A DNA stretch of 64,000 bases from an uncultured Geobacteraceae bacterium (GTDB lineage Bacteria > Desulfobacterota > Desulfuromonadia > Geobacterales > Pseudopelobacteraceae): positions 1-64,000 of the forward strand of contig CAIRBT010000144.1 of the NCBI GenBank assembly GCA_903876875.1. The letters run 5' to 3'. Below, one piece after another: positions 2 to 19,075 of this stretch. The notes under the pieces are model-generated. The model did not search any database. It had not been told where the DNA came from and worked only from the letters and a program-made list of their open reading frames with translations. Numbering within the stretch: position 1 is the stretch's first letter; each line of letters begins with the position of its first letter. Made by a program: the position numbers and the translations under genes.

Positions 2-3000
2 ACCGTAGCGGTTGGCAAGGCAACGCCGACCATCACGACCCAGCCTTCGGCAAGCGGCATTAAATTTAGTCAACCGCTTTCCGCTTCGACCTTGAGCGGT
101 GGTGTTGCTTCAGTTCCTGGTTCTTTTACCTTTACCAATTCTGTCACGGTTCCCTCCGCAGTTGGTAGCTTCACTGCCGATTGGACGTTTACGCCAACCG
201 ACGCGACTAACTACACCACCGCAACCGGCACGGTAACCGTGGTAATTAGTAAGGCCACACCAAACGTTACGAAGCAGCCGACGGCAAGCGGTCTCAAATT
301 TGGCCAGTCGCTATCTTCCTCAATCCTGAGTGGTGGTACTGCTTCAGTTGCCGGTGTTTTTGCCTTTATCACTCCGACAACAACTCCACCGGTGATTGGT
401 AGTTTTAGTGCTGATTGGATATTTACACCGACCGATGTGGTCAACTATACCACTGTAACCGGCACGGTAAACGTAGATGTTGGCAAGACAACACCAAGTG
501 TTACAACACAGCCCTCAGCAAGCGGCATTACATTTGGTCAGGCACTTTCAGCCTCAACCTTGAGTGGCGGTGTTGCTTCGGTTCCCGGTGTTTTTGCCTT
601 TACCGTGGTGAACACGGTCCCATCCGTGATTGGCAATTTCAGTGCCGATTGGACATTTACTCCGACTGACGCTACCAACTATGCTGCGGTAACCGGCACG
701 GCAACTGTGGTGGTCAGCAAGGCGACGCCAAACATCACGACGCAACCCTCAGCAAGCGGTATTAAACTCGGTCAGTCACTGTCTTCCTCAACCCTGAGTG
801 GCGGAGTTGCTTCGGTGCCCGGTGCCTTTACCTTTGCCAATCCCGCTACGATTCCATCTGTTGTTGGTAACTTCAATGCGGATTGGAAATTTGCTCCGAC
901 CGATCTGGTTAACTATACAACCGTAACCGGTACGGTAACCGTGGTGGTCGGCAAGGCGACGCCAATCATCACAACGCAACCAGCTGCGAGCGGTATCAAA
1001 TATGGTCAGTCACTCTCATATTCAACCCTGAGTGGCGGTGTTGCTTCTGTTGCCGGTACTTTTGCTTTTTCGACTCCCGTCACGATTCCATCTGCACTTG
1101 GCAACTTCGCTGCCGATTGGACGTTTACCCCCACTGATATGACCAGCGATACCATCGTGACCGGCAGTGTGAACGTTTCGGTTGCCAAAGCACCGGTTAC
1201 GGTTGGCGGTTATACCGCGAGCAATAAAGCGTATGACGGCACAACGACTGCAACTCTTGGTGGTACTCCGGTTCTTACCGGTGTGATTCCGGGAGACAGT
1301 GCCAACGTATCTCTGAGTGGAACGGCCGTCGGTACCTTTGCGACCAGTACCGTCGGCACGGGAAAAACCGTCACCATCAGTGGTGTGATCCTTTCCGGCA
1401 GTGCCAGCGGCAACTATACTCTCACAAGCATCAATAGCCCGACGGCCGACATTATCAAGGCAACCGCAGCTATCACCTGGCCAACCGCTGCTTCCATCAC
1501 CTATGGTCAGACCCTTGCCTCGTCAATTCTGTCAGGCGGTTCAGCGAACGGCAGCTTTGCCTTCACCACACCGACGACCTTGCCTTCAGCCGGAACGGCG
1601 GTGCAGAGTGTTACCTTTACTCCAACAGACAGTAATTACAGCAGTGCGACCAACAGTATAAGTGTCTCTGTTGCTAAGGTCGTGGTCACGGTAAGCGGCT
1701 ACACAGCGAGCAACAAACCCTATGACGGCACTCCGGCAGCAGCCCTGAGCGGCACTCCGACTCTGAACGGTGTGATTTCCGGAGATCTCGGCAATGTGAC
1801 TCTGGGTGGCACAGCCGTCGGGCTCTTTAATTCAAGCGCCGTGGGTACCGGTAAAACTGTCACCATAACTGGCGTGATCCTTTCCGGCAGTGCCAGCAGC
1901 AACTATACTCTCGCAAGTATCAATAGCCCCATTGCAGACATAACTAAAGCAACAGCATTCGTTACCTGGCCGACCGCTTCGTCCCTCACCTATGGCCAGA
2001 CCCTGGCATCATCTGTGCTGTCGAACGGTTCCCCGAACGGTACCTTTGCCTTCACTGCTTCGGCGACATCCCCGTTAGTTGGGACCGCTCCTCAGGGAGT
2101 TACCTTTACTCCTACCGACAGCCTCAACTATAACAATGCAACCAGCAGCGTCAGCGTTACGGTTACCAAGGCACCGGTTACGGTAAGCGGCTATACGGCA
2201 AATAGCAAAACCTACGACGGCTTAACTTCCGTAACCCTTGGGGGTACTCCCGTACTGACTGGCGTGATTTCCAGTGATCTTGCAACTGTTACTCTGAGCG
2301 GTACAGCCGTTGGCGTCTTTGCCAGCAGCGCAGTCGGCACCGGTAAAGCCGTAACCGTAAGCGGCGTATCTCTTTCCGGCAGTGCCAGCAGTAACTATAT
2401 GTTGGTGAGTATCAACAGCCCCAGCGCTGACATTACCAAAGCAACGGCCTCCATCACCTGGCCGATAGCTTCATCCATAACCTATGGTCAGGCACTTGCT
2501 GCGTCGACCCTGTCTGGCGGTTCTCTGAACGGCACCTTCTCATTCACAACTCCAGCGACCTCGCCGTTAGTTGGCACAGCTCCGCAGAGTGTTACCTTTA
2601 CCCCATCGGACAACAACTACAGCAGCGCGGTTGGTACGGTAAATGTCACGGTTACCAAGGCACTGCCGAGCATCACAACACAGCCGATAGCAAACGGCAT
2701 CAATTTCGGTCAAAGCCTCTCTGTAGCATCTTTGAGTGGTGGTGTTGCCTCGGTTCCCGGCACCTTTGTTTTCACTGCTCCGGGTTTCACCCCGACATCG
2801 GTGGGTAATTACACTGCCGGTTGGACTTTTATCCCGGTTGAAACAGCCAACTACGCCACGGTAACCGGTACCGCAACTGTTTCGGTGGGCAAAGGGTCAG
2901 CTGAAATAGTCCTGTCCGGTTTGAATCCTACCTATGATGGCAAGGTGAAACCGGCGACAGTCACCACAACACCTGCGGCACTTTCTTACAGTGTCACTTA

Positions 3001-6000
3001 TAATGGCAGTACGACGATTCCGGTGAATGCGGGAACCTATGAGGTGGTTGCAACGGTTACCAGTGCCAATTACAGCGGGAGCACATCCGGCACAATGGTG
3101 ATCGGTAAGGCTTCTGCACTTATCAATCTGAACAGCACCAGCCTGAATCCTACCTATGATGGGGTGACCAAGGCGGTTGCCGTGACCACCGTACCGGCGG
3201 GACTCTCGTATAGCGTCATGTACGATGCCAGTACGATGGCACCGGTAAATGCCGGAACATACGCAGTTGCTGCGACAATTAGCGACCCGAATTATGCCGG
3301 AAGCAGTACCGGAAGTCTTGTGATTGGCAAGGCGGATGCTGCTATCAGTTTCACCGGTACCAGCTTGAACCAGATATTTGACGGTACGGCGAAAGCGGCA
3401 ATGGTGACAACGGTGCCGGGTGGTAAAGTCGTTTCACTCACGTACAATGGCGGTGCTACGGTTCCTGTCAATGCCGGTAGCTATGCTGTTGAGGCTGCTC
3501 TGAGCGATACCAATTACAAAGCAACTGCAACAGGTACCCTGGTCATCGCCAAGGCAACTCCGGTGATTTCCTGGATGACCCCCCGTGCGTTAATCGTTGG
3601 CAGCAGTTTGTCCGATGCACAGTTAAACGCTTCGGCAAATGTACCGGGGAACTTTGTGTACGATCCTCCTACCGGTACCCCTGTGGCTTCGGTGGGGAGC
3701 CAAACATTGAATGCCACTTTTACACCGGGTGATTCCGCAAACTACATCACAAATGTCAAGGCAAGTGTTACTCTCACGGTCAGTGACAAGATTGTTCCCG
3801 TCGTAACATGGGCTTCCCCCTCGGCGATTGTCTATGGGGCGGCACTTTCTCCGGCTCAATTGAATGCTTCAACGGCCGTTGCCGGCAGTTTTAGTTACAC
3901 CCCGGCAGCCGGTACGGTACTCAATGCCGGTATCCAGATGTTGAGCGCCACCTTTACACCAACCGATACGGTGACATATTCGTCGGTGACCGCCAGTGTC
4001 AGCATTACGGTCAATAAAGCTGCCGCGACGGTGACTTTTGCCAATGGCAGTTTGAGCCAGGTTTATTCGGGAGTGGCAAAGACGGTGTCGGTGCTTACGA
4101 GCCCGATGGATAAAGCCGTGGTAGTTACCTATAACGGCAGTACCGCTGTGCCGCTCAATGTAGGGACGTATGCCGTAGCTGCAAGCATAAACGATGCAAA
4201 TTTCAGTGGCAGTGTGACCGGTACTCTTGTTATCGATAAAGCTGCCCAGACGCTCTCTTTTGCTCCACCGGCGAGCAAAACCTATGGAGATGCCTCTGTG
4301 TATGTGGCGGCATCGTCTTCAGCAGGGGTGACGGCAAATGTTTCCCTCGTGAGTGGCCCGGCGGTATTGAACGGTGCGGTGTTGACGATCACCGGAGCCG
4401 GAGAAATCAAGCTTAAGGCGAGCCAGGCGGGAGATAGTAACTACCTGGCCGCGACGGATGCCGTTGCCAGTATCATTGTCGCACCAAAACCGCTGGTTAT
4501 TACGGCAAACAATGCGATACGTCCCTATGGTGCTGTCAACCCTGTGAATCCCGGTTTTACAGCACCGGCCCTTGTGGCGGGGGATCTGATTTCAGCTGTC
4601 AGCTATACCTACGCGGAGAGTGCCAATTCGAATGTGACTTCGAGCGTCGGCACAACCCATGCCATTACTCCGGCTAATGCGGTATTCAGCAGCGGCAGTG
4701 CGGCCAATTACGCTCTTACGTATAAACAGGGGAGCCTGACCATTGAGGGAACCGCCAGTCAAACGATCAGTTTTTCTGCCCCTTCGAGTAAAACCTATGG
4801 CGACGCACCAGTGACACTTACGGCGACGTCTTCTGCGGATCTTCCGGTGAGTTTTACCTTGGTGAGTGGCCCTGCCACCTTGAGCGGATCCACTCTTTCA
4901 TTTACCGGTGCGGGATCTGTTGTGGTAACGGCATCGCAGAGCGGCAGCATTAATGTTGCCGCTGCCGCCGATGTCACCCAGACCATTGTGGTTTCCCGTA
5001 AGCCACTTACCATACGTGCCAACAATGCAAGCCGCATCTACGGTGCAGCCAACCCGGTGAACACCGGTTTCACCGCACCTGACCTGGTCGCCGGTGATGT
5101 CATTTCCGGTGTGGTGCTCGCCTATGGGGCAAGTGCCACCGCCACTGCAAATGTTGCGACGACCCACGCGATCAGCATTACCCCGGGAACCGTCCAGTTT
5201 AGTACCGGTAAGAGCAGTAACTATATTATTGCCTATCAAGACGGCGTGTTAACAATTGCCGGACAGGCCAGCCAGTCAATTGCCTTTGCTGCCGTGCCGG
5301 TAAATAAAACGTATGGTGACGCACCGATTATTCTCAATGCGGTTGCGTCGTCCGGTCTGCCGATAGCTTATTCGGTGAAAGGTCCTGCCACTTTGACGGG
5401 AAATACGCTTGGTATTACCGGAGTAGGAGAGGTTGTGGTTACTGCCGCGCAGGCGGGTAATCTTAACTATGCTGCGGCAACGGAGTTCTCACAGACAATT
5501 AAAGTATCTCAAAAAGTGCTGTCAATTGTCGCCAACAATGGGAGTCGTGCCTATGGTGCGGTTAATCCCGCTAATCCCGGATTTTCCGCACCGGGGCTTG
5601 TTGTGGGTGACGCCATCTCGACGGTGGTTTATACCTATGGGGCAACAGCAACTCTGGAGGCAAACGCAGGGACAGAACACGCTATTTCAGTAAGTTCGGC
5701 CCAGTTCAGCTCAGGCAGTGCGGCCAATTATGCCATAACGTATATTGATGGGACTCTGACCATTTCAGGGGGGCTTGGTCAGGCGATCAGCTTCACTGCT
5801 CCGGCTCAAAAAGGCTATGGTGATGCACCAATCCTCTTAAGTGCGACGGCAACATCCAATCTTCCGGTCAGTTTTGCCATTGTGAGTGGGCCGGGGACTA
5901 TGTCAAACGGCACCAAACTTACCATAACCGGTGCCGGGAATATCGTGGTTAAGGCGACCCAATCGGGGAACACCAACTTTACCGCTGCCCCGGATGTTCA

Positions 6001-9000
6001 ACAGACCATAATCGTTTCACCACGGCCGATTGTTCTCACCCCCAACGGTACCAGTCGTGCCTATGGTGCTGCCAACCCGGAAAACCCCGGCTTTACTGTC
6101 AGCAATATGGTCACGGGAGACGCAATTTCATCTGTTTCATACAGCTATGCAGTAACCGCCACTACAGAGGCTGGTGTTGGCTCGACCCACATACTTTCCG
6201 TGGTGCCCGGCTCAGCACAATTCAGTGCCGGAAATGCAACTAATTACGTTGTTTCGTATGCCACCAGTCTCCTGACGATAGCCGGTAAGGCACGGCAGAC
6301 GATCAGTTTCTCTACGGCAGATTCTAAAAAATATGGTGATGAACCGATCGTCTTGAATGCAACGGCAACATCGGGTCTGCCGGTCAGTTTCGCATTGCTG
6401 AGCGGTCCTGCAACTGTGACAGATGGTACAACCCTCACCATAATCGGTGCCGGAACCATTGTGGTCAAGGCAACCCAGGCCGGCAATAGTAACTATACTG
6501 CGGCAACTGATGTGGCCCAGACGATCGTCGTTGCTCCAAAGCCACTCACCATAACGGCGAATAATGCCAGCCGTGCCTATGGCGTTGTTAATCCTGGCAA
6601 CCCCGGCTTTACCGCTCCCGGTCTGAAAACCGGAGACGTTATCTCGGCAGTTACCTATACGTATGCACCCACTGCCGGTTTGACGGCCACTGTGGGGACA
6701 TCACATGGGATCACCCCGAGTGCGGCACAATTTAAAGTCGGCACTGCCGGTAATTATGCCATTACCTACGCTGAAGGTACGTTGACCGTTTCTGAAACCG
6801 CCAGCCAGGCCATAAGTTTTGCCGCCCCGCTTGGTAAAACCTATGGCGATGCACCGTTCAGGTTGGCTGCCACCGCTACGTCCGGACTGCCGGTAAGCTT
6901 TGTGCTGGTGAACGGCCCGGCAACATTATCCGGTGCTACGCTCACGCTTACCGGTGCCGGGAATGTTGTTGTGAAGGCGGTACAGGAAGGTACCATCAAC
7001 TATTCCGCAGCCGCCGATGTTCTGCAGACCATACTGGTTTCACCGAAAGCTCTTACGGTTACGGCCAATAACTCAAGCCGTTCCTACGCCGCTGCCAATC
7101 CGGCCACTCCTGGCTTTACGGCTCCCGCACTGGTGGCAGGCGATATCATCTCCACCGTGGTTTATACCTATGCTTCAACGGCGACGGTGACTGCGGGCGT
7201 CGGTACGCAGCACGGAATTACCCCGAGTTCCGCACAATTCAGCTCCGGCAATGCCGGAAATTATGCCATTACCTACCTGGATGGCACCCTTACCATTGCA
7301 GGTACCGCTTCACAGACCATCAGTTTCACGGTGCCGGTTGCTAAAACCTATGGCGACGCTCCGATGGCTCTGAATGGTGTTGCCACCTCCAGCCTCCCGG
7401 TCGGGTTTGCGGTTGTCAGTGGTCCTGGCCGTATTACCGGTACTACCATGACCATTACCGGTGCCGGGACCATTCTGGTCAAGGCGATCCAGTCGGGAAA
7501 CAGCGACTATGCCGCCGCACCGGAAATCGTTCAGACTATAGTTGTGGCACCGAAAGCCCTGGCTATTTCTGCCAATAAGGCGAGTCGTGGCTATGCTGTC
7601 GCCAACCCGGTAAATCCGGGCTTTACCGCTCCTGATCTGGTGGCGGGTGATAGTATCTCAGGCGTTATCTATAGCTATCAGGCAACTGCCACCATGACGG
7701 CTGCTGTCGGTTTTGGCCCCCATACCATCACGCCAAGTGCGGCACAGTTCAGTGCCGGCAGTGCTGCAAACTATGTCATTACCTATAACGATGGCCTGCT
7801 TGTCATTGCCGGGAAAGCAAGCCAGACGATCAGTTTCGTCACTCCGGCGGGAAGATCATACGGCGATGCGCCGATTGCATTGTCTGCGTCGGCAACGTCC
7901 GGTCTGTCGACCGGCTTTGCCCTTGTGAGCGGACCGGCGACCCTGGTTGACTCAACCCTTACCATAACCGGTGCCGGAACCATTGTTGTCAAGGCCTCCC
8001 AGCAGGGGAATGAAAACTATGCGGCCGCCGCCGATGTTTCCGTTACCATCGTGGTTGCCCCCAAAGTATTAACCATTACGGCACATGACGTTAATCGTGC
8101 CTACGCCGTTGTCAACCCATCTAACCCGGGATTTACCGCCGCGACTCTTGTCGGTGGTGATACTATTGATAAAGTAACGTTCACCTATCAAGCAACAGCC
8201 GTTGCAGCGGCATCGGTCGGATCAACGCACAGCATTACCCCCAGTGCGGCACACTTTGCCACTGGCATTTCTACAAACTATGTCATAACCTATGTATCGG
8301 GAATATTGACTGTATCTGAAAAAGCACCCCAGACGATTGCCTTTGTTCCGCCGACCGGCAGAAGCTACGGCGATGCTTCGCTGACCTTGAGTGCTGGTGC
8401 CTCTTCAGCTCTGCCGGTCACGTTTACCCTGATTGAAGGGCCCGCGAGCCTGAGCGGTTCCCTTTTGACCATAAGCGGCGCCGGCACCATAAAAGTTGTG
8501 GCGTCCCAATCCGGTAACAACAATTATGCGCCGGCCACCGAGGTAACGGGTACCATCGTTGTGCAGCCGAAACCGCTTACCATTACCGCCAACAGTATCA
8601 GTCGAAGCTTTGGTGCCACGAACCCGACCAACCCCGGCTTTACCACGTCACCACTTGTGCCGGGTGATAACATAAGCAGTATCTCATATAGCTATCCGGC
8701 CGATACTTCCGGGAATGCCGGTACCAGCTACGGGATCACTCCGGGCAACGCCATCTTCTCTGTCGGTTCAGCAGCAAACTATACCATCACCTATGTTGCC
8801 GGTTCCCTGACGGTGGCGGGGGGGCAGAAACAGGTGATCACCTTTGCTCCGGTTACCAGCAGAGTGTACGGGGATGCTCCGCTTCAACTGGTCGCCACTG
8901 CCGACTCCGGTCTGCCGGTGAACATAACCTTGGTAAGCGGTCCCGCCACACTGGCCGGAAATGTGTTAACAGTCACCGGTGCCGGAACCATTAACCTGAA

Positions 9001-12000
9001 GGCTTCCCAGACGGGCGACACCAACTACTCTCCGGCTCTCGATGTGCCGGTCAGTATCACGGTCACTCCCCGCAAATTGTCGATTGTCGCAAACAACGGG
9101 AGCCGCTCCTATGGTGCTGCCAACCCGTTTGATCCCGGCTTCTCCGCACCCGGCCTGGCCTTTGGTGATAAAATCAGTGGTGTGACCTATGGCTACACGG
9201 CGACTGCGACCGCCCATGTTGATACCACATCACCGATTATTCCGGCAGCAGCCGTCTTCAGTGTCGGCAGTGCTAATAATTATGACATTACCTATGTGCC
9301 GGGAACATTAACTATCGTTGGAAAATCATCACAGACGATCACCTTTACCCCTCCGGCAACCAAGGTCTATGGCGACATTTCAACCCTGAAACTGAGCGCC
9401 ACCTCAACGTCTGGATTACCGGTGACCCTTGCCCGCATCAGCGGTCCGGCCACCCTTGAGGGGGATACACTGACCATAACCGGAGCAGGTGTCATCAATC
9501 TCAAGGCATTGCAGTCGGGGGATGGCGATAATCTTCCCGCCTCTGACATAACAGCGGCAATTACCATTGCTCCACGGCCGCTTGTGGTGACTGCGGATAC
9601 CAAATCACGGATCTACGGCGATACGGACACCCTGACCTACAAGATTACCAGCGGTTCGTTGGTTGGTACGGATGCCTTCAGCGGTGTGCTTACCCGTACC
9701 GTCGGTGAAAATGTCGGGAGCTATCAGATCCAGAAGGGGACGCTTACGGCGGGTGCCAACTATGCCCTGACGTTCTTACCGGCGAATCTGACGATTATCG
9801 CAAAAACTCTGGTCGTGACTGCCGATGCCAAAACAAAAGTGTATGGCGGGACAGATCCGCTACTCACCTACCATAACGACCCTCTTGTGGGTACGGACAT
9901 CCTTTCTGGAAAACTCGTGCGAGTGAGCGGAGAGTCCGTTGGTGCTTATGCAATTCAGCAGGGTTCGATCACTGCCGGATCCAACTATAGTATTTCCTTT
10001 GTCACTGCTAATGTGACGGTAACGGCACGGCCGCTGACCATTACCGCCAACAGTGCCAGTAGGGCGTATGGCGAAGCGGATCCTGCCAATCCCGGGTTCA
10101 CGGCACCTTCACTGGTTGCCGGTGATTCCATTGCCAGTGTCTCCTACGTCTTTAGCAGAATTACTCCCGATGGGGTCGGCAATCAGTACCCCATTACTCC
10201 GGCCGGGGCTGTCTTTAGTGTTGGCAATGCGAATAACTATGACATTACCTATGCACCGGGTACCATGACCGTTCCAGGGCAGAAAGCACAGAGCATTACC
10301 TTCGCTCCTCCGCTTACCATGGTGTATGGTGACGCACCCCTGGTTTTGAGTGCTTCGGCAGACTCTCCCCTGCCGGTCAGTTTTACCCTTGTGAGCGGGC
10401 CTGCCACACTGAGCGGCAGCACCCTGACCATAACCGGAGCCGGAACCGTAACGGTGAAAGCATCTCAGGCCGGTGACAGCAACTATGCGGCGGCTTCCGG
10501 TGTGACTGCGGTGATAACCGTTACCAAAGCTGCTCAGACAATCGGCACCATAAGCGGTTCCGCAACGCTCAACTATGGTGTGTCCACAACCCTCAGCGTG
10601 GTGGCTGCTCCGTCAGGCATCCCGATCACATTTACCACGTCCACTCCGACGGTTTGTACGGTTGCCGGTACTACTGTCAAGGCGGTCGGTGGCGGAATGT
10701 GTACCATTACCGCCGATCTGCCGGGGAATGCCAATTACACCGCTGCCCCCCCGGCAACAAAAAATATTACCGTAAGCACCATCGCCCCCACCGCTCCGGT
10801 TGTCAGGACTGTCACTGGCGGCAATGGTCGGGTCATCGTCACCTTAACAGCTCCGGTTTCTAATGGCGGCACTGCGGTTACCGGCTATACGGTGAAAAGT
10901 ATCCCTGCCGGTGGGGTTGATTATAATGCCGGTTCCACGTTGACAACCCACACCGTGACCGGCCTTACCAACGGTACGGCGTACACCTTTACGGTCACGG
11001 CGACTAATGCCAGTGGCACAAGTACCGATTCCGAACCATCGGCAGCGGTGACCCCGGTGACTGACCCTGATGCTCCAAAAGTTACCAAAGTAACGGCTGC
11101 AGCTGGTCAGGTCACTGTGGAATTTACGACGCCTGCCAATGGCGGCAGTCCTCTTACGCTCTATACGGTAACCTCGACACCGGGCAACAAGATTGCCACC
11201 GGCACCACCGGTCCGGTGGTGGTCACCGGATTGACCAACGGTACGGCCTACACGTTTACGGTGACGGCAGCGAGTGCCGTGGGCACCAGTCTTCCGTCAG
11301 CACCTTCCGCTTCGGTAACACCGGTAACCGTACCCGATGCACCACTGTCACTGTATGCAACGGGTAATAACGCTGAGGCCACGGTCACCTTTACGGTGCC
11401 TGTCTCCAATGGTGGCAGTCCGCTAACCGGATATACGGTGACGTCTAATCCGGTCGGCGGCATTGACCGTAACGCCAACAGTACCGCAACAGTTCACAAG
11501 ATAGGCAATTTGGTTAACGGTACATCCTACACCTTTACGGTTACGGCAAGTAACGCCGTGGGCACCAGTCAGCCGTCCAGCCAGTCCAGCAGCATTACGC
11601 CGACTGCCGATGTGCCGGGAGCACCGACAATCGGCACCGCAACCGGTGACAATGCCAGTGCGACGGTGAGCTTTACCGCACCGTCCAGCAATGGCGGCAG
11701 TGCCATCACCGGCTACACGGTGACTTCGATGCCGGGTAACATTTCCGCCACCGGTACCGCCAGTCCCATAATCGTAACCGGCCTTACCAACGGCACACCA
11801 TACACGTTTACCGTGACCGCAACGACTGTTGCCGGTACCAGTACCCCTTCGGCTGTTTCCAACAGTGTCACCCCTGCCACGGTTCCTGATGCTCCGTATG
11901 GAGTTACCACGACCGGCGGTAATGCCAGTGCCACCGTTTCATTCAAGGCACCGGTGGTCAATGGCGGCAGCCCGATCAGTAAATATGCCGTGACTTCAAC

Positions 12001-15000
12001 ACCTGGCGGGATAGTGAAGGAGGGTACCTCCAGTCCCATAATTGTCACCGGCCTTACCAACGGCATTACGTACAAATTTACCGTTGTCGCGGTAAATGCC
12101 AAGGGAGCAAGCCAGATGTCAACTGAATCCAACAGTGTGACGCCGGATGTCAACCCTGCCGCTCCAACCGGAGTGGTTGCCATCAAGGGGAACTCCAAAG
12201 CCACCGTGACCTTTACCGCCTCTGTATTGAACGGCGGCAGTGCAATTGCCGGTTATACGGTTGTTTCAAACCCTGCGGGGGGGTATGACACCAATGCAGC
12301 GACATCCCTGACCAGCCATGAAATAACCGGCTTGACCAACGGCACGGCGTACACTTTTACCGTCGTAGCCAGCAACGCCACCAAAACCAGTCTTCCTTCG
12401 GCGGCATCGAGCAGTGTGATGCCGTCAACGTTTGCCTCAGCACCGACGTCGGTGTCGGCACTGAAAGGTAATGCCAGCGCAACGATAAGCTTTTCAACGC
12501 CATCGTCCAATGGTGGTATCCCGATAACCGGCTACACCGTGACATCTACTCCCGGAAATTTCAGCGCGACCGGCACCTCCAGCCCGCTCTTTATTACCGG
12601 TCTGATCAACGGCACCTCCTATACGTTTACGGTTGCTGCCCTCAATGAAAATGGTGCCGGCACTCCATCTGCGGTATCCAACAGTGTGACTCCGCTGGCC
12701 AACGTGCCGGGTACTCCCGCCATCAGTTCGGTTATCGGAGGCAACTCCTTTGCCCAGGTGACTATTACCGCACCCCTTTCAAACGGTGGCAGCGACATAA
12801 CCGGTTATACGGTTTCATCTAACCCGCCGGGGGGTGTTGACAATGACGCCGGTGCAGCGGACGCCACCCACACGATTACCAACCTGGTCAACGGTACCCG
12901 CTACACCTTTACCGCGACCGCTGCCAACAGTGCTGGTACCGGTGCGTCATCGGGAGTTTCTGCGGTTGTTATTCCTGATGTGGTTCCCGGAGCTCCGACA
13001 ATTACCGCTGTTACCGTTGACAATGCCGCTGCAACGGTTGCTTTCTCTCCACCTGCAGACAGTGGCGGCACCCCGGTTACCTCCTATCTGGTGACCGCCG
13101 TTCAGGACAACAGTAAAACCGCATACGGCCCAACCAGTCCCATAACGGTCAAAGGTCTGACCAACGGCACGCAATATAGCTTTGTCGTTACTGCGATCAA
13201 TAGCAAGGGGGCGGGCGAGCCGTCGGCAAACTCAGATTCGGTCACACCAAAGGATACGACCGCCCCGCTTGTGGCACTGTTTGTTGCACCGGCATCTGTC
13301 GAGGCGCGGGATACGGACAGCAAAGTATCGATAGGGATTTCAATTTACGCACTTGATGAAGTCGGTGTCACCGGCTATCTGATTACTGAAACCGATGCCA
13401 CTCCCAAGGTTGATGACGGCTGGATTGCCAATACGCAACCGCAAAACTTCAGTATTAATGCAACGGTGGCTATTTCCGCAACACCGGGCATCCATACCCT
13501 GTTCGCTTGGGTCAGGGATGCTGCCGGTAACATCTCTGTGCCCTACAGTGCCCAGACGGTGGTAACCCCGGTGGATACCACCCCTCCGGTCATTATCTCC
13601 GGGCCGACGGTGACGTCCGTTCGTGATACGTTTGCCGTGGTTGAATGGCAGACGAATGAGTCTTCCAAAGGGGGAGTGAACTTCGGAGATACCTATCCGC
13701 TCACGACGTCACTACCGGAAAGTGACTACGTTATCAGTCACTCACAAACCATGAGCGGTCTGGAAGCTGATAAAACCTATTACGTTGAGGTCTTTGCTTC
13801 CGACCACACCGGTAATGGACCGACGTTAAGTAAAGTTGTCTCCTTCCGGACCAGTCCGTCACCGGATACGACCGCACCGTTTATCACCGAAGGGCCGACA
13901 GTCATTGGTATCGGTAATACGTCTGCAACGGTTCAGTGGCGTACCAACGAGCCGGCACGGGGCAATGTGTATTATGGCTCTGTGGCAACTCTCGGCAGTT
14001 CTGCTGAAGAGCCGGGGACAGATTTTACCACCATACACAGCGTCAAGCTCAGCGGCCTGACGGCGGAGACGGTGTACTACCTGAAGGTGACGGCCACCGA
14101 TAACGCAAAGATTCCCAATGGCCCCCGCGAAAGCACCATGGTTTCTTTCACGACGGTTGCCAATCCTGATACCACCCCGCCAAAGGTTGTTGAAGGACCA
14201 ATGGTGGTGAATATTTCCGATACCGGAGCTACGGTACTCTGGAAGACCGATGAACCTTCTACCAGCGAAGTCACCATAAGTAATGGTTCCAACTATGCCC
14301 TGGTTGCAGACAAGGCTCTGACGACCAGCCATACGGTGAATCTGAGCAGTTTGCAGGCGTTGACTCCGTACAACTATGCCGTTGCCTCATCGGACGGTTC
14401 AGGCAATATCACCCGGCTTGCCAACAGGACTTTTACCACCTTTGCCGAACCTGATATTACGCCACCGGTCATTCTTGAAGGGCCGATGGTAATTTCTGTG
14501 ACTGACAAATCTGCCGTTATCAACTGGGCAACCAACAAGCCGGCCGATAGCGTTATCCAATACGGAAAAACGGAAAGCCTTGACGGGGCGGAGAGTCGCA
14601 CCGAATTAATCCGGGCTCACAGTCTCTACCTGACCAATCTTGAGGCGGGAACGCTCTATTATTACCGGGTGCTTTCAACGGATACGTTTGGTAACGGCCC
14701 GACGGAAAGTAAAGTATTTACCTTTACCACCAATGATCGCCCGGTATACAAGCAGCCGGTAATAACCAAAGCACCGAGCATTATTTACTCAACGGATACC
14801 AGTCTCACCATCTATTGGGAAACGGATGACCCGTGTGATTCCGTCGTGTATTATGGTGCAAACGGAGTATTAAATAACCGTGTCGCCAACAGTGAAATGG
14901 TTACGAAACACCAGATAACTATTTCAAATTTAATCGCAGGAACCCAGTATTCCCTGTCGGTTTCATCGACCAACGCAAGCGGCAATACGATTGTTGCAGA

Positions 15001-17848
15001 CGCAGGTGGTAACAATGAGTCACGCATGGCCTTTGGTCTGGTCGGCATGTTGGTGGACTCGATGGTAAACGTCTTCACCGCGATTGATATAAAAACCGGG
15101 GCAAACGCAGATACCACTCCTCCGGTTATTACTCCCGGTTCTCTCCTGGTAACCGGTATTACCGATACTCAGGCTCTTGTTTCCTGGACTACGGATGAAA
15201 TTTCCGACACTCAGATACACTACGGTGTGGTAAGTGGTGCACTTAATTTATTCGATGGCACAACCGAACAAAAAACCTCTCATACCTTTGTATTAACCAA
15301 TCTTGCTCCGAATACCGCTTATTTCTTTACGGTTTCATCCACCGATCCAAGTAATAATGGACCGACGACCAGTGGAGAGCTGACCTTTACCACTCAGTCA
15401 GCACCTGATACAACACCGCCCCAGTTTACGGTGTTGCCATCCCCCTCACTTGTCGGGACTGATTCGGCGACCATAACCTGGGAAACCGATGAACCGGCCA
15501 CAACCGAAGTCAAGTACGGCTTGAGTGCTGCGACTATGACTCACCCAGCCTCGATCTCCGGCTATAGTGGATCCCATTCGATAACTCTGACATTGAATCC
15601 GGGGACGATGTACTATGTAAGTGCGATATCCCGTGATAGCTCCGGTAACGTTTGGGAGTCTCCGCTTGACCCCTTTACCACCTATGGTTCCGCCGATGTG
15701 AGCGAGCCGGTTACCACGCCGTCGTTAAGTGCAGGTACCTATACCGGTCCTCAGGTCGTAGGCCTCTCCGCCGATAAACCGGCAACTATTTACTATACAA
15801 TAGACGGTACAGTGCCCACCCTCTCTTCGGGTCAATACAATGGGCCGCTTTCCTTAGCGACCAGTACGACTATCGGTTTCTTTGCCATAGATGGCTCGGG
15901 TAACCGGGAAGTGGCAAAGAGTGCCGGTTATCTCATTCAGTATCCGATCACCGTGGCAACTCCTGATAGTAACGGAGTGATTACCTGCGCGACACTGGCA
16001 AACTCCGGCGAAGCTGCGACGTGTCAGATTACCCCGATTACCGGCTACCAATTGTCCTCTGCAACCGGTTGCGGCGGAGCCTGGAACGGTACAGCCTACA
16101 CCACCGGTCTGATCACGACAGGGTGTACGGTGACGGCATATTTCGGCAAAATTAATTATGTGGTTGATTTTTACAGTAATGGCGGCACAGCTGTCAGCAG
16201 CCAGAGTATACCTTACAACACGAATGCTGGGGTACCGGGTGAGCCGGGTAGAACCGGCTATACCTTTGCCGGATGGTATGGTGACCCCGATTTGACACAA
16301 CCGTTCAGCTTCAGCACTGTGATTACCGCCGACCTCCATCTGTATGCTAAATGGGACTTGAACCGTTATGCCGTGAGCTTCTCCACCGATGGTGGCAGCG
16401 GCGTTACGAGCCAGTCTGTCGGCTACCATACGGCGGCGACCCAGCCGAGCGACCCGACAAAGAACGGTTACACCTTTGCCGGGTGGTACGGTGATGCCGG
16501 CCTGACTTCGGCCTTTGTCTTTACCACGCCGATCATGGTTGACATGGTGTTGTATGCCAAGTGGACGCTTAACAGCTACACGGTGAGCTTCTCCAGCAAT
16601 GGTGGCAGCACTGTTGCCAGCCAGACTATCGCCTACAACGGCACTGCCACGGCACCGGTTGCCGCCCCGTCAAAAGCCGGTGCCACGTTTGCTGGTTGGT
16701 ACAGCGATGCCGGTTTGACGACTCCGTTCGTCTTTACCACGCCGATCACAGCTGACACGGTGCTGTATGCGAAATGGACGATCAACAATTACACGGTGAG
16801 CTTCACCACTAATGGTGGCAGCACTGTTACCAGCCAGACCATCGCCTACAACGGTACGGCCACGGCACCGGTTCCCGCCCCGTCAAAAGCCGGTGCCACT
16901 TTTGCCGGCTGGTACGGCGATGCCGGTTTGACCTCGGCCTTTGTCTTTACCACACCGATCACAGTTGACACGGTGCTGTATGCGAAATGGACGATCAATA
17001 ATTACACGGTGAGCTTCACTACTAATGGTGGCAGCACCGTTACCAGCCAGACCATCGCCCACAACGGCACTGCCACGGCACCGGTTGCCGCCCCGTCAAA
17101 AGCCGGTTCCACGTTTGCCGGCTGGTACAGCGATGCCGGTTTGACGACTCCGTTCGTCTTTACCACACCGATCACAGCTGACACGGTGCTGTATGCGAAA
17201 TGGATGATCAACAATTACACGGTGAACTTCACCACTAATGGTGGCAGCACTGTTACGAGCCAGACCATCGCCTACAACGGCACTGCCACGGCACCGGTTG
17301 CCGCTCCGACAAAAACCGGTGCCACGTTTGCTGGCTGGTACAGCGATGCCGGTTTGACGACTCCGTTCGTCTTTACCACACCGATCACAGCTGACATGGT
17401 GCTGTATGCGAAATGGATGATCAACAATTACACGGTGAGCTTCACCACTAATGGTGGCAGCACTGTTACGAGCCAGACCATCGCCTACAACGGTACGGCC
17501 ACGGCGCCGGTTGCCGCTCCGACAAAAACCGGTGCCACCTTTGTCGCCTGGAACAGCGATGCTGCTTTGACAACCCGTTTTGTCTTTACCACGCCGATTG
17601 TGGGCGATACCGTTTTGTATGCGGAGTGGGTGGCCGAGTTCTGCCCGACAATCAGTGGTGACATCAATGGCGACGCCAAAGTCGATATTAAAGATGCACT
17701 TTTAGCTCTTCAGATGACCGTAGGTCTGAAAACGCCAACTCCCCTCCAGCTTCTGTGCGGAGATGTGGCACCATTGATCAATGGTAAGGCCGACGGGAAA
17801 ATTAATATCAGTGATGTCGTGGTAATTCTGGAAAAAGTAGTTCAATAA
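2..17848 (+). CDS. Giant multi-repeat surface protein with C-terminal dockerin-like domain (5' end outside window)
   Basis: The frame is open from the first base, so the true start lies upstream and 5,948 residues are visible. Order of modules (numbered from base 2): five 78-residue units (about 6-395); three 163-residue YDG-type modules (396-885); one more 78-residue unit (886-963); MBG-type units; about ten 170-residue MBG 'YGX-type' modules plus variants (about 1410-3510); nine fibronectin III domains (about 3600-4415); seven fn3-like domains each opening near DTTPP (about 4523-5230); a chitobiase-C-terminal-like domain (about 5230-5317); seven Listeria-Bacteroides repeats (about 5384-5878); and a dockerin-like end (5880-5948) whose first loop GDINGDAKVDIKD carries D/N ligands for calcium, the second loop being GKADGKINISD. 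It is rich in Thr/Ser/Gly/Val and poor in Cys, as expected of an extracellular adhesin or matrix protein. No sortase signal or autotransporter barrel is visible. Its function is inferred from architecture only; the neighbouring lipoprotein may anchor it. Confidence 0.9.
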   Translation, partial: TVAVGKATPTITTQPSASGIKFSQPLSASTLSGGVASVPGSFTFTNSVTVPSAVGSFTADWTFTPTDATNYTTATGTVTVVISKATPNVTKQPTASGLKFGQSLSSSILSGGTASVAGVFAFITPTTTPPVIGSFSADWIFTPTDVVNYTTVTGTVNVDVGKTTPSVTTQPSASGITFGQALSASTLSGGVASVPGVFAFTVVNTVPSVIGNFSADWTFTPTDATNYAAVTGTATVVVSKATPNITTQPSASGIKLGQSLSSSTLSGGVASVPGAFTFANPATIPSVVGNFNADWKFAPTDLVNYTTVTGTVTVVVGKATPIITTQPAASGIKYGQSLSYSTLSGGVASVAGTFAFSTPVTIPSALGNFAADWTFTPTDMTSDTIVTGSVNVSVAKAPVTVGGYTASNKAYDGTTTATLGGTPVLTGVIPGDSANVSLSGTAVGTFATSTVGTGKTVTISGVILSGSASGNYTLTSINSPTADIIKATAAITWPTAASITYGQTLASSILSGGSANGSFAFTTPTTLPSAGTAVQSVTFTPTDSNYSSATNSISVSVAKVVVTVSGYTASNKPYDGTPAAALSGTPTLNGVISGDLGNVTLGGTAVGLFNSSAVGTGKTVTITGVILSGSASSNYTLASINSPIADITKATAFVTWPTASSLTYGQTLASSVLSNGSPNGTFAFTASATSPLVGTAPQGVTFTPTDSLNYNNATSSVSVTVTKAPVTVSGYTANSKTYDGLTSVTLGGTPVLTGVISSDLATVTLSGTAVGVFASSAVGTGKAVTVSGVSLSGSASSNYMLVSINSPSADITKATASITWPIASSITYGQALAASTLSGGSLNGTFSFTTPATSPLVGTAPQSVTFTPSDNNYSSAVGTVNVTVTKALPSITTQPIANGINFGQSLSVASLSGGVASVPGTFVFTAPGFTPTSVGNYTAGWTFIPVETANYATVTGTATVSVGKGSAEIVLSGLNPTYDGKVKPATVTTTPAALSYSVTYNGSTTIPVNAGTYEVVATVTSANYSGSTSGTMVIGKASALINLNSTSLNPTYDGVTKAVAVTTVPAGLSYSVMYDASTMAPVNAGTYAVAATISDPNYAGSSTGSLVIGKADAAISFTGTSLNQIFDGTAKAAMVTTVPGGKVVSLTYNGGATVPVNAGSYAVEAALSDTNYKATATGTLVIAKATPVISWMTPRALIVGSSLSDAQLNASANVPGNFVYDPPTGTPVASVGSQTLNATFTPGDSANYITNVKASVTLTVSDKIVPVVTWASPSAIVYGAALSPAQLNASTAVAGSFSYTPAAGTVLNAGIQMLSATFTPTDTVTYSSVTASVSITVNKAAATVTFANGSLSQVYSGVAKTVSVLTSPMDKAVVVTYNGSTAVPLNVGTYAVAASINDANFSGSVTGTLVIDKAAQTLSFAPPASKTYGDASVYVAASSSAGVTANVSLVSGPAVLNGAVLTITGAGEIKLKASQAGDSNYLAATDAVASIIVAPKPLVITANNAIRPYGAVNPVNPGFTAPALVAGDLISAVSYTYAESANSNVTSSVGTTHAITPANAVFSSGSAANYALTYKQGSLTIEGTASQTISFSAPSSKTYGDAPVTLTATSSADLPVSFTLVSGPATLSGSTLSFTGAGSVVVTASQSGSINVAAAADVTQTIVVSRKPLTIRANNASRIYGAANPVNTGFTAPDLVAGDVISGVVLAYGASATATANVATTHAISITPGTVQFSTGKSSNYIIAYQDGVLTIAGQASQSIAFAAVPVNKTYGDAPIILNAVASSGLPIAYSVKGPATLTGNTLGITGVGEVVVTAAQAGNLNYAAATEFSQTIKVSQKVLSIVANNGSRAYGAVNPANPGFSAPGLVVGDAISTVVYTYGATATLEANAGTEHAISVSSAQFSSGSAANYAITYIDGTLTISGGLGQAISFTAPAQKGYGDAPILLSATATSNLPVSFAIVSGPGTMSNGTKLTITGAGNIVVKATQSGNTNFTAAPDVQQTIIVSPRPIVLTPNGTSRAYGAANPENPGFTVSNMVTGDAISSVSYSYAVTATTEAGVGSTHILSVVPGSAQFSAGNATNYVVSYATSLLTIAGKARQTISFSTADSKKYGDEPIVLNATATSGLPVSFALLSGPATVTDGTTLTIIGAGTIVVKATQAGNSNYTAATDVAQTIVVAPKPLTITANNASRAYGVVNPGNPGFTAPGLKTGDVISAVTYTYAPTAGLTATVGTSHGITPSAAQFKVGTAGNYAITYAEGTLTVSETASQAISFAAPLGKTYGDAPFRLAATATSGLPVSFVLVNGPATLSGATLTLTGAGNVVVKAVQEGTINYSAAADVLQTILVSPKALTVTANNSSRSYAAANPATPGFTAPALVAGDIISTVVYTYASTATVTAGVGTQHGITPSSAQFSSGNAGNYAITYLDGTLTIAGTASQTISFTVPVAKTYGDAPMALNGVATSSLPVGFAVVSGPGRITGTTMTITGAGTILVKAIQSGNSDYAAAPEIVQTIVVAPKALAISANKASRGYAVANPVNPGFTAPDLVAGDSISGVIYSYQATATMTAAVGFGPHTITPSAAQFSAGSAANYVITYNDGLLVIAGKASQTISFVTPAGRSYGDAPIALSASATSGLSTGFALVSGPATLVDSTLTITGAGTIVVKASQQGNENYAAAADVSVTIVVAPKVLTITAHDVNRAYAVVNPSNPGFTAATLVGGDTIDKVTFTYQATAVAAASVGSTHSITPSAAHFATGISTNYVITYVSGILTVSEKAPQTIAFVPPTGRSYGDASLTLSAGASSALPVTFTLIEGPASLSGSLLTISGAGTIKVVASQSGNNNYAPATEVTGTIVVQPKPLTITANSISRSFGATNPTNPGFTTSPLVPGDNISSISYSYPADTSGNAGTSYGITPGNAIFSVGSAANYTITYVAGSLTVAGGQKQVITFAPVTSRVYGDAPLQLVATADSGLPVNITLVSGPATLAGNVLTVTGAGTINLKASQTGDTNYSPALDVPVSITVTPRKLSIVANNGSRSYGAANPFDPGFSAPGLAFGDKISGVTYGYTATATAHVDTTSPIIPAAAVFSVGSANNYDITYVPGTLTIVGKSSQTITFTPPATKVYGDISTLKLSATSTSGLPVTLARISGPATLEGDTLTITGAGVINLKALQSGDGDNLPASDITAAITIAPRPLVVTADTKSRIYGDTDTLTYKITSGSLVGTDAFSGVLTRTVGENVGSYQIQKGTLTAGANYALTFLPANLTIIAKTLVVTADAKTKVYGGTDPLLTYHNDPLVGTDILSGKLVRVSGESVGAYAIQQGSITAGSNYSISFVTANVTVTARPLTITANSASRAYGEADPANPGFTAPSLVAGDSIASVSYVFSRITPDGVGNQYPITPAGAVFSVGNANNYDITYAPGTMTVPGQKAQSITFAPPLTMVYGDAPLVLSASADSPLPVSFTLVSGPATLSGSTLTITGAGTVTVKASQAGDSNYAAASGVTAVITVTKAAQTIGTISGSATLNYGVSTTLSVVAAPSGIPITFTTSTPTVCTVAGTTVKAVGGGMCTITADLPGNANYTAAPPATKNITVSTIAPTAPVVRTVTGGNGRVIVTLTAPVSNGGTAVTGYTVKSIPAGGVDYNAGSTLTTHTVTGLTNGTAYTFTVTATNASGTSTDSEPSAAVTPVTDPDAPKVTKVTAAAGQVTVEFTTPANGGSPLTLYTVTSTPGNKIATGTTGPVVVTGLTNGTAYTFTVTAASAVGTSLPSAPSASVTPVTVPDAPLSLYATGNNAEATVTFTVPVSNGGSPLTGYTVTSNPVGGIDRNANSTATVHKIGNLVNGTSYTFTVTASNAVGTSQPSSQSSSITPTADVPGAPTIGTATGDNASATVSFTAPSSNGGSAITGYTVTSMPGNISATGTASPIIVTGLTNGTPYTFTVTATTVAGTSTPSAVSNSVTPATVPDAPYGVTTTGGNASATVSFKAPVVNGGSPISKYAVTSTPGGIVKEGTSSPIIVTGLTNGITYKFTVVAVNAKGASQMSTESNSVTPDVNPAAPTGVVAIKGNSKATVTFTASVLNGGSAIAGYTVVSNPAGGYDTNAATSLTSHEITGLTNGTAYTFTVVASNATKTSLPSAASSSVMPSTFASAPTSVSALKGNASATISFSTPSSNGGIPITGYTVTSTPGNFSATGTSSPLFITGLINGTSYTFTVAALNENGAGTPSAVSNSVTPLANVPGTPAISSVIGGNSFAQVTITAPLSNGGSDITGYTVSSNPPGGVDNDAGAADATHTITNLVNGTRYTFTATAANSAGTGASSGVSAVVIPDVVPGAPTITAVTVDNAAATVAFSPPADSGGTPVTSYLVTAVQDNSKTAYGPTSPITVKGLTNGTQYSFVVTAINSKGAGEPSANSDSVTPKDTTAPLVALFVAPASVEARDTDSKVSIGISIYALDEVGVTGYLITETDATPKVDDGWIANTQPQNFSINATVAISATPGIHTLFAWVRDAAGNISVPYSAQTVVTPVDTTPPVIISGPTVTSVRDTFAVVEWQTNESSKGGVNFGDTYPLTTSLPESDYVISHSQTMSGLEADKTYYVEVFASDHTGNGPTLSKVVSFRTSPSPDTTAPFITEGPTVIGIGNTSATVQWRTNEPARGNVYYGSVATLGSSAEEPGTDFTTIHSVKLSGLTAETVYYLKVTATDNAKIPNGPRESTMVSFTTVANPDTTPPKVVEGPMVVNISDTGATVLWKTDEPSTSEVTISNGSNYALVADKALTTSHTVNLSSLQALTPYNYAVASSDGSGNITRLANRTFTTFAEPDITPPVILEGPMVISVTDKSAVINWATNKPADSVIQYGKTESLDGAESRTELIRAHSLYLTNLEAGTLYYYRVLSTDTFGNGPTESKVFTFTTNDRPVYKQPVITKAPSIIYSTDTSLTIYWETDDPCDSVVYYGANGVLNNRVANSEMVTKHQITISNLIAGTQYSLSVSSTNASGNTIVADAGGNNESRMAFGLVGMLVDSMVNVFTAIDIKTGANADTTPPVITPGSLLVTGITDTQALVSWTTDEISDTQIHYGVVSGALNLFDGTTEQKTSHTFVLTNLAPNTAYFFTVSSTDPSNNGPTTSGELTFTTQSAPDTTPPQFTVLPSPSLVGTDSATITWETDEPATTEVKYGLSAATMTHPASISGYSGSHSITLTLNPGTMYYVSAISRDSSGNVWESPLDPFTTYGSADVSEPVTTPSLSAGTYTGPQVVGLSADKPATIYYTIDGTVPTLSSGQYNGPLSLATSTTIGFFAIDGSGNREVAKSAGYLIQYPITVATPDSNGVITCATLANSGEAATCQITPITGYQLSSATGCGGAWNGTAYTTGLITTGCTVTAYFGKINYVVDFYSNGGTAVSSQSIPYNTNAGVPGEPGRTGYTFAGWYGDPDLTQPFSFSTVITADLHLYAKWDLNRYAVSFSTDGGSGVTSQSVGYHTAATQPSDPTKNGYTFAGWYGDAGLTSAFVFTTPIMVDMVLYAKWTLNSYTVSFSSNGGSTVASQTIAYNGTATAPVAAPSKAGATFAGWYSDAGLTTPFVFTTPITADTVLYAKWTINNYTVSFTTNGGSTVTSQTIAYNGTATAPVPAPSKAGATFAGWYGDAGLTSAFVFTTPITVDTVLYAKWTINNYTVSFTTNGGSTVTSQTIAHNGTATAPVAAPSKAGSTFAGWYSDAGLTTPFVFTTPITADTVLYAKWMINNYTVNFTTNGGSTVTSQTIAYNGTATAPVAAPTKTGATFAGWYSDAGLTTPFVFTTPITADMVLYAKWMINNYTVSFTTNGGSTVTSQTIAYNGTATAPVAAPTKTGATFVAWNSDAALTTRFVFTTPIVGDTVLYAEWVAEFCPTISGDINGDAKVDIKDALLALQMTVGLKTPTPLQLLCGDVAPLINGKADGKINISDVVVILEKVVQ
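17..1186 (+). repeat. Five tandem 234-bp coding repeats (78 residues each)
   Basis: Each unit opens with a Lys-Ala/Thr-Thr-Pro codon group, at bases 17, 251, 485, 719 and 953; the spacing is exactly 234 bp every time. The units encode the same beta-sandwich motif, with SGGVASV near the middle and FTPTD towards the end. A sixth copy stands apart at 2657-2890, after the three 163-residue modules, which shows the array was built by duplication and insertion. The array probably continues upstream of the window. Confidence 0.9.
4240..10530 (+). repeat. Array of about ten ~510-bp MBG/YGX-type modules plus shorter variants
   Basis: A module of about 170 residues repeats. Each contains a 'KTYGDAP' segment, a 'TITGAG' segment, an 'ITANNASRAYG' segment and a 'NYAITY' segment. 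The ANN.SR.YG landmark recurs near bases 4500, 5010, 5525, 6040, 6550, 7060, 7565, 8080, 8585 and 9085, with variant or shortened copies near 9590, 9820 and 10040. The copies have diverged, with wobble-position differences throughout, so this is an old array kept in frame by selection rather than a fresh duplication. Confidence 0.85.
16151..17635 (+). repeat. Seven Listeria-Bacteroides (Flg_new) repeats; last five are 213-bp near-identical units
   Basis: Units begin at 16151, 16361, 16571, 16784, 16997, 17210 and 17423. The first two are 210 bp and the later ones exactly 213 bp (71 residues). Each encodes a strand pair ending in 'FAGWY..DAGLT' and 'VLYAKW'; the last copy has degenerate versions (FVAWNSD, LYAEW). 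The later copies are almost identical in DNA, including silent positions, which points to recent duplication or gene conversion and makes this the part of the gene most prone to copy-number change. Confidence 0.9.
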
Positions 17849-17920
17849 ACTGAAGTTCATTTACCCGAACGGGACACGTTTTAATTTCTTCATGAATTAA
17901 TGTGTGTGGAGGAAGTAACG

Positions 17921-19075
17921 ATGAATATACGACAGCTTTGTATTATAGCACTCTTCTTGTTAACCGCCTGTGGAGGCGGAGGGGGGGGGGGCGGTGCTGC
18001 ACCGACCGTCATCGGTGGGGTTGCTTCCAAGGGGATTATCGTCGGCGGCACGGTTACCGTCTATGCACTTAATGCCGATGGCAGTAAAACAGTGCTTAGG
18101 AAAGATATACCTACCGATAGCAACGGCAGATACTCGGCTGATGTCGGTGGCTATGCCGGGCCGGTGGTGGTGGAAGTGTGGGGTGACTATACTGACGAAG
18201 CAACCGGAGCTATCAAGCACATTACGCAAGGGGAGCCACTTCGGGCGGCACTCAGTAGTGTGAGCGGTAATGTTGCACTGTCTGTCACGCCGCTTACCGA
18301 TCTGGCGGTGCGCCAGGCGGGAACCCTTACCGCTCAGAAAATTCTGGCTGCCAATAAACAGATATCAGAAATTTTCAAGGTTGATATAACCGCGACCGCT
18401 CCGGTAGCGACTACGGCTCAGGCATTTCAATCGAGCCAGACGACGCAGGCACAGAAAGATTACTCCCTTGCTCTGGCGGCAATCTCACAGCAGATGAAAA
18501 CTGGCACACAACTTTCTGCAGTTCTTGATACGTTGCAAGGTGGCATAACTGATACCGGGCTGAGTGAGCAGGCAGCACACACCTTTACCACGTCGGTGTC
18601 AGAATTTATCGCAAACGACAAGAACCAGACCGGTGTAGCCTCAATTGCAGATACTTCACTCAAGGCGGTGGGTTTAACGACGGTCAAATTGGTGCTCGTT
18701 CTGGAAGGCAATGCTGCGGCGTGTAAAGGGCTGCAGACGGTTATTACCCTTCCCGCCGGTGTTACCATGAGAGCCGATACCAGTGGTCAAATTCTCGACG
18801 GAGCCATTGTGGCCGCAGGAAGTGCTTCCGGTGGCTACCTTACCGGGCGTTATGCAGCGGCGACGCAATCAGAGTCGGCGACGATTACTCTGGCACTTAC
18901 ACCCGCAGGTACGTTGGCGGCGGGAGCCATCGTTGAGATTAATGCCGACATTGCACCCGGTTCGGCCGTGCCACTTCTCAGTGGATTTACCGTTGACGGT
19001 GGCCAGAGTAACTTCTCCGGCGAACATGGTGTTGAATTAAGCGGCATGGTATTGTCATTGATGTTCAAGATATAG
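17921..19075 (+). CDS. Outer-surface lipoprotein with cohesin-like C-terminal module
   Basis: The start is ATG 17921, behind a strong GGAGGAAG site at 17908-17915; an upstream in-frame start at 17900 lacks such a site. The 384-residue product opens with a hydrophobic signal ending in the lipobox LTAC, so Cys17 should be lipidated after signal peptidase II cleavage. Eight glycines follow, encoded partly by a run of 11 G. Residues about 27-130 resemble a carboxypeptidase-regulatory-like or transthyretin-like beta fold. Residues about 250-384 form a second beta-rich module with 'ITLPAGVTMRADTSG', a pattern I recall from Geobacter proteins with cohesin-like domains. It lies 72 bp after the giant dockerin-ended gene, in the same direction. 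The role as its anchor is inference; the lipoprotein nature is well supported. Confidence 0.82.
   Translation: MNIRQLCIIALFLLTACGGGGGGGGAAPTVIGGVASKGIIVGGTVTVYALNADGSKTVLRKDIPTDSNGRYSADVGGYAGPVVVEVWGDYTDEATGAIKHITQGEPLRAALSSVSGNVALSVTPLTDLAVRQAGTLTAQKILAANKQISEIFKVDITATAPVATTAQAFQSSQTTQAQKDYSLALAAISQQMKTGTQLSAVLDTLQGGITDTGLSEQAAHTFTTSVSEFIANDKNQTGVASIADTSLKAVGLTTVKLVLVLEGNAAACKGLQTVITLPAGVTMRADTSGQILDGAIVAAGSASGGYLTGRYAAATQSESATITLALTPAGTLAAGAIVEINADIAPGSAVPLLSGFTVDGGQSNFSGEHGVELSGMVLSLMFKI
17981..17991 (+). repeat. G11 homopolymer inside the lipoprotein coding sequence
   Basis: Eleven consecutive G residues fall in the poly-glycine stretch right after the lipidated cysteine. Slippage by one base would shift the frame and abolish the mature lipoprotein. 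As a coding mononucleotide run near the 5' end, it is a candidate phase-variable tract. Confidence 0.7.

Follow-up and report, generated by a model that had tools for sequence, protein, structure and literature searches.

A putative two-gene display cassette of a dockerin-ended giant repeat protein and a cohesin-like lipoprotein in Geobacterales

The window analysed here, a stretch of 64,000 nucleotides, comprises the initial 64 kb of contig C144, which belongs to a genome of 3.93 Mb in 191 contigs. Its left end is occupied by a very long open reading frame, which is followed on the same strand by the gene of a predicted lipoprotein. The two genes and their features are:

1-1166, + strand: 234-bp tandem repeat in five copies, at the beginning of the MBG_3/YDG part
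2-17848, + strand: giant repeat protein gene, an open reading frame of at least 5,948 aa with its stop codon TAA at 17846-17848 and its 5′ end beyond the contig
2-10400 (end approximate), + strand: MBG_3 (3.4e-84), YDG (1.8e-44) and MBG_2 (1.5e-73) domains (Pfam)
10400-15700 (borders approximate), + strand: fn3 (1.5e-69) and Pur_ac_phosph_N-type beta-sandwich domains (Pfam)
15728-15910, + strand: CHB_HEX_C_1 domain (Pfam, 6.7e-19)
16367-17622 (borders approximate), + strand: seven Flg_new (List-Bact) repeats (Pfam)
16471-17598, + strand: 213-bp tandem array within the Flg_new region
17642-17845, + strand: C-terminal dockerin module with two calcium-type loops and an insertion in the second
17908-17912, + strand: predicted ribosome-binding site GGAGG of the lipoprotein gene
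17921-19075, + strand: lipoprotein gene, with predicted signal peptide (17921-17968), codon of the lipidated Cys (17969-17971) and a glycine run
17999-18640 (borders approximate), + strand: N-terminal part of the lipoprotein, a transthyretin/CnaB-like beta-sandwich and then helices
18677-19072, + strand: cohesin-like C-terminal domain of the lipoprotein (model and Foldseek)

As the contig starts at base 1 of the window, the N-terminus of the giant protein is missing and no usable start is known; a clear continuation of it was not found in the same genome. The original prediction of a protein of more than 5,900 residues therefore stands as an open frame of at least 5,948 aa, whereas completeness and true length cannot be stated. 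Among the 150 dockerin matches listed in our survey of the class this frame is the longest. Long frames with YDG/MBG-like repeats were also seen at the left end of contig C152 (L178; 4,811 aa, running off the contig) and on C155 (L179; 3,747 aa), both with a start resembling filamentous-haemagglutinin exoproteins. Immediately 3′ of the two genes, and co-directional with them, lies gyrA (window 19465-22005).

The lipoprotein gene most likely starts at the ATG at 17921, 72 bp past the stop of the giant gene and preceded by the GGAGG motif; the ORF listing places the start of the frame at 17900. The N-terminus carries the lipobox LLTA-C followed by glycines (MNIRQLCIIALFLLTA-CGGGG), and the residue after the Cys is not Asp. 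By these features of its sequence it is a predicted outer-membrane lipoprotein, in agreement with the lipidated protein that had been proposed at this distance. No terminator-like or promoter-like site was found on the coding strand in the gap between the two genes.

The C-terminal end of the giant protein reads GDINGDAKVDIKDALLALQ...GDVAPLINGKADGKINISDVVVILEKVV. Its first loop has the canonical form D-x-N-x-D-x-x-x-D-x-x-D and its second loop an insertion (D-VAPLINGKA-DGKINISD). The loop 1 pattern is present in 50 of the 76 dockerin–lipoprotein pairs that we compared and the inserted loop 2 in 72. Searched with Pfam Dockerin_1 (PF00404), the last 68 aa of the giant protein scored 18.4 bits (E 0.0026), which is below the cut-off of 22.9. 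We also built a family profile, A2, from the end regions of 20 genes situated immediately 5′ of related lipoproteins. Dockerin_1 matched 14 of these 20 members (best 7.5e-6), and the best matches of A2 among solved structures were dockerins (2y3n_B, E 0.0023). Thus, the profile search proposed for this module leaves this copy below the cut-off, whereas the family profile finds solved dockerins. The modelled module matches the C. thermocellum dockerin 2ccl_B with a TM of 0.86 (by target length), an rmsd of 1.5 and a probability of 1.00, and in a joined model with the lipoprotein it forms three helices with a pLDDT near 90. With its two loops, the Pfam matches of its relatives and its predicted fold, the module is confirmed as a dockerin, as the original prediction of a calcium-type dockerin-like pair had it.

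A dockerin subtype with a degenerate loop 1, mostly of the RNIIY type, was seen at L162, L160, L209, L220, L224 and L230; several of these dockerins accompany a divergent lipoprotein type (GVAQAGIF...FKGYSG). Two further genes of this genome, on C152 (L160:5061-7382, +) and C134 (L163:2086-3018, +), have EF-hand-like ends (CDGSGVVSISEVQ and NGDGAISPSEF, respectively) and are linked to Pfam-type cohesins, one within the same 774-aa protein and the other directly 5′ of a 175-aa cohesin protein. These ends possibly represent a second cohesin-dockerin type.

For the last ~135 residues of the lipoprotein no cohesin match was obtained in Pfam or NCBIfam. PF00963 matched none of 24 members of the lipoprotein family, the family of the domain had no sequence-profile match in the PDB, and an hhalign comparison with the cohesins of the same genome gave a non-significant probability of 2.5%. 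As there is no significant sequence relation to cohesins, the assignment of the domain is based on its fold. The model, which was built with 32 relatives, has a pLDDT of 90.8 and a pTM of 0.82, and 18 of its top 20 Foldseek matches in the PDB are cohesin chains, several of them from the same entries. The best match is 2xdh, a non-cellulosomal cohesin of A. fulgidus (probability 1.00, TM 0.51-0.55, E 0.015). Others are 4uyp, 2zf9 and 4n2o, and the cohesin probabilities are mostly 0.95-1.00 with a TM of about 0.5. Since the E-values are modest (0.015), we consider the fold evidence good but not overwhelming. Two outcomes had been named beforehand as speaking against a cohesin. The lack of a cohesin profile match was indeed found at the level of sequence, but the weightier of the two, a confidently predicted different fold, did not appear. 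The predicted cohesin-type fold is thereby borne out with moderate strength, and the C-terminal domain of the lipoprotein is a probable cohesin. The N-terminal part of the lipoprotein is also present in other lipoproteins with other C-termini, including some from other phyla.

To follow the pair through other genomes, a second profile, A1, representing the lipoprotein C-terminus, was used together with A2. Both profiles detect six loci in this genome, matched one to one and always with the dockerin 5′; three of these loci (C33, C111 and one of the two on C107) were absent from the search alignments. Near relatives of the lipoprotein are mostly encoded directly 3′ of a dockerin-ended gene (exceptions are L010/L080, L014/L089, L018/L090 and L088). 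In a survey with named organisms, the named relatives belong to Geobacterales, namely Geomonas, Geomesophilobacter, Oryzomonas and Geobacter-type genomes. Among 277 genomes of the class, A1 was found in 97 and A2 in 107. The co-occurrence that had been expected in related genomes is indeed seen: 95 genomes have both, 14 have one only (A1 in 2, A2 in 12) and 168 have neither, with a Fisher value of 9e-58 that ignores shared ancestry. The family is seldom found beyond the class: of the genomes sampled from other classes of the phylum, two have it.

Of the best 150 A1 matches, at least 73 are preceded, at 105-1081 bp and in the same orientation, by an A2 match listed among the best 150 of that profile; none of the 150 has such an A2 match downstream or on the opposite strand. 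The spacing falls into two main modes of roughly 105-240 bp and 720-1,090 bp. These reflect two forms of lipoprotein: short ones of about 170-200 aa, in which nothing but a lipobox and the cohesin-like domain is present, and long ones that also have the N-terminal part. A lipobox-like motif is present in 70 of the 76 pairs. Among 20 dockerin genes for which no neighbour was listed, about five were judged to precede a short cohesin-type lipoprotein and the others not. We conclude that the dockerin-then-cohesin-like pair is a real and recurrent two-gene module across the order.

As the dockerin and the lipoprotein share a reading frame, we read through the stops and predicted them as one chain. 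The joined chain has a pTM of 0.76, which lies between the values estimated for a free and a docked dockerin. Dockerin distances correlate with cohesin distances over the 76 pairs (r 0.49), a value that none of 999 within-genome shuffles reached. However, among the 52 long forms the dockerin correlates with the N-terminal part of the lipoprotein (0.61) much as with the cohesin (0.65), and the partial correlations (0.38 vs 0.46) do not differ significantly. The similar co-divergence of both parts with the dockerin is ascribed to linked inheritance, and this mirror-tree comparison was rejected as evidence of contact, being non-specific.

The dockerins are attached to a variety of proteins. In this genome they are found on the giant protein, an RHS/Glucodextran_B protein, a protein with an NHL propeller and Glucodextran_B, a small protein with a Pfam cohesin domain, a 187-aa protein and an fn3 protein; the cargo in other genomes includes a 2,509-aa sortilin/BNR-propeller protein and a multicopper oxidase. 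The giant adhesin of the earlier description, with its adhesin-like repeats, is just one type of cargo beside propellers, a multicopper oxidase and a small cohesin protein. Such varied cargo points to a general anchor. The multicopper oxidase domain (PF07731, 1.5e-22) is part of a dockerin-ended protein encoded 5′ of a lipoprotein gene (L124:1-1131), and multicopper oxidases in Geobacterales may be relevant to metal reduction. A pair on C107 (L159:10238-13793) is flanked on both sides by multihaem-cytochrome-like genes with CXXCH-type motifs, and long open frames with ends resembling cytochromes lie downstream of the orphan dockerins L257 and L259.

Considering both folds and the recurrence of the pair across the order, always with the dockerin first, we think it likely that the two genes form a display cassette, in which the dockerin-tailed protein would be held by the cohesin-like lipoprotein through predicted binding. 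The cohesin-dockerin pairing that had been proposed for this locus is thus supported, as a putative one. The large repeat protein would first be exported, as the apparent Sec signal peptides of complete relatives suggest. Its C-terminal dockerin is predicted to fold, probably around calcium, judging from the loop residues. The outer-membrane lipoprotein encoded by the co-directional next gene would then bind the dockerin via its cohesin-like domain, a step to which fold, adjacency and recurrence point. This would attach the giant protein to the cell envelope without a covalent bond, most probably on the outer surface. As the same cassette is found with different cargo, the pair would act as a general C-terminal anchor and not as part of a cellulosome.

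The strongest of the alternatives is a genome-wide network in which neighbours are not the main partners, the dockerins are taken by Pfam-type cohesins and adjacency merely reflects co-regulation. Five Pfam-type cohesins are encoded in the genome, one of them as part of a lipoprotein secretin; orphan dockerins exist, and in some genomes a dockerin was found while no cohesin-like lipoprotein was detected. We nevertheless consider such a network improbable, because the dockerin and lipoprotein genes lie next to each other, one to one and in a constant order, both here and for at least half of the best matches. The secretin, moreover, is also encoded by genomes that lack these dockerins, e.g., G258, G261 and G274. 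The secretin itself (P0003, on C173, L164:3861-6359, - strand; PF00263 1e-38) has a C-terminal Pfam cohesin domain (8.8e-8), and its gene adjoins PilO-like and pseudopilin genes. In many genomes of the class, including ones without the dockerin family, similarity among its relatives spans the cohesin part. The idea that its cohesin belongs to the same cassette is weakened by its occurrence in genomes without these dockerins.

Alternatively, the lipoprotein could be a helper in the periplasm or at the outer membrane, a chaperone or an export factor that contacts the cargo transiently before its final release. The conserved N-terminal part of the long form, which is found in other lipoproteins, may indeed do more than anchor, but the short forms suit a tether better than a machine, and we regard this as quite unlikely. 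That the genes are chance neighbours, with an EF-hand-like pair that merely stabilises its protein and an unrelated lipoprotein, would fit the sub-threshold Pfam scores of this copy but is made very unlikely by the recurrence across the order, the fixed order and spacing and the strong co-occurrence.

The display cassette can be compared with known systems. Cohesin and dockerin modules are known outside cellulosomes in many lineages (Peer et al., 2009, cited in PMC9012536). The pair shares with these the occurrence of both folds outside cellulose degradation, and its best fold match is the A. fulgidus 2xdh. It differs in that the cohesin-like family is not matched by the Pfam cohesin profile and is part of a lipoprotein, whose gene directly follows that of the presumed dockerin partner at several loci in a genome. 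Adjacent cohesin and dockerin proteins are described for the syntrophic sulfate reducers Hot-Seep1 and Seep-SRB (PMC10553843), and such modules likewise for ANME archaea (PMC9012536). They have in common with our pair adjacent cohesin and dockerin modules, adhesin-like proteins and a suggested role in cell contact without cellulose degradation; the Geobacterales lipoprotein family does not appear in the accessible parts of these two papers.

Cellulosomes resemble the pair in that the dockerin fold of the giant protein is close to the C. thermocellum type I dockerin 2ccl_B, but the pair has no multi-cohesin scaffoldin or carbohydrate-active enzyme domain and its dockerin loop 2 is inserted. With one cohesin-like domain per lipoprotein, non-catalytic Pfam domains in the giant protein, and fn3, Glucodextran_B, NHL and cohesin domains in the dockerin cargo of this genome, we reject a cellulosome reading for the pair. 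Dockerin-bearing fn3/sialidase-like genes matched to Geobacter were expressed in Fe(III)-reducing soil, and the dockerin was taken there as a sign of cellulose degradation (PMC6199725). These genes encode the same kind of protein, with fn3 or propeller domains and a dockerin; in contrast to that reading, the cassette suggests anchoring at the envelope. A literature search, beyond whose reach most subscription papers lay, found no description of the lipoprotein family or the cassette. We place the cassette among the non-cellulosomal cohesin-dockerin systems, as a variant of this known kind.

More tentatively, and with considerable doubt, Geobacterales might use sets of cohesin-dockerin pairs, each specific to its neighbour and working in parallel, with up to more than 10 per genome, as a general code by which exported proteins are sorted and anchored. 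Its purpose would resemble that of sortase or PEP-CTERM systems, in a non-covalent form and possibly with proteins handed over from the cohesin-bearing secretin.

If the display cassette is true, the cohesins would gain a family on lipoproteins that escapes sequence profiles, and natural pairs would be at hand to study cohesin-dockerin specificity. The dockerins of Geobacter-type bacteria would then be a label of the surface proteome in organisms whose way of life depends on contact with minerals and partner cells.
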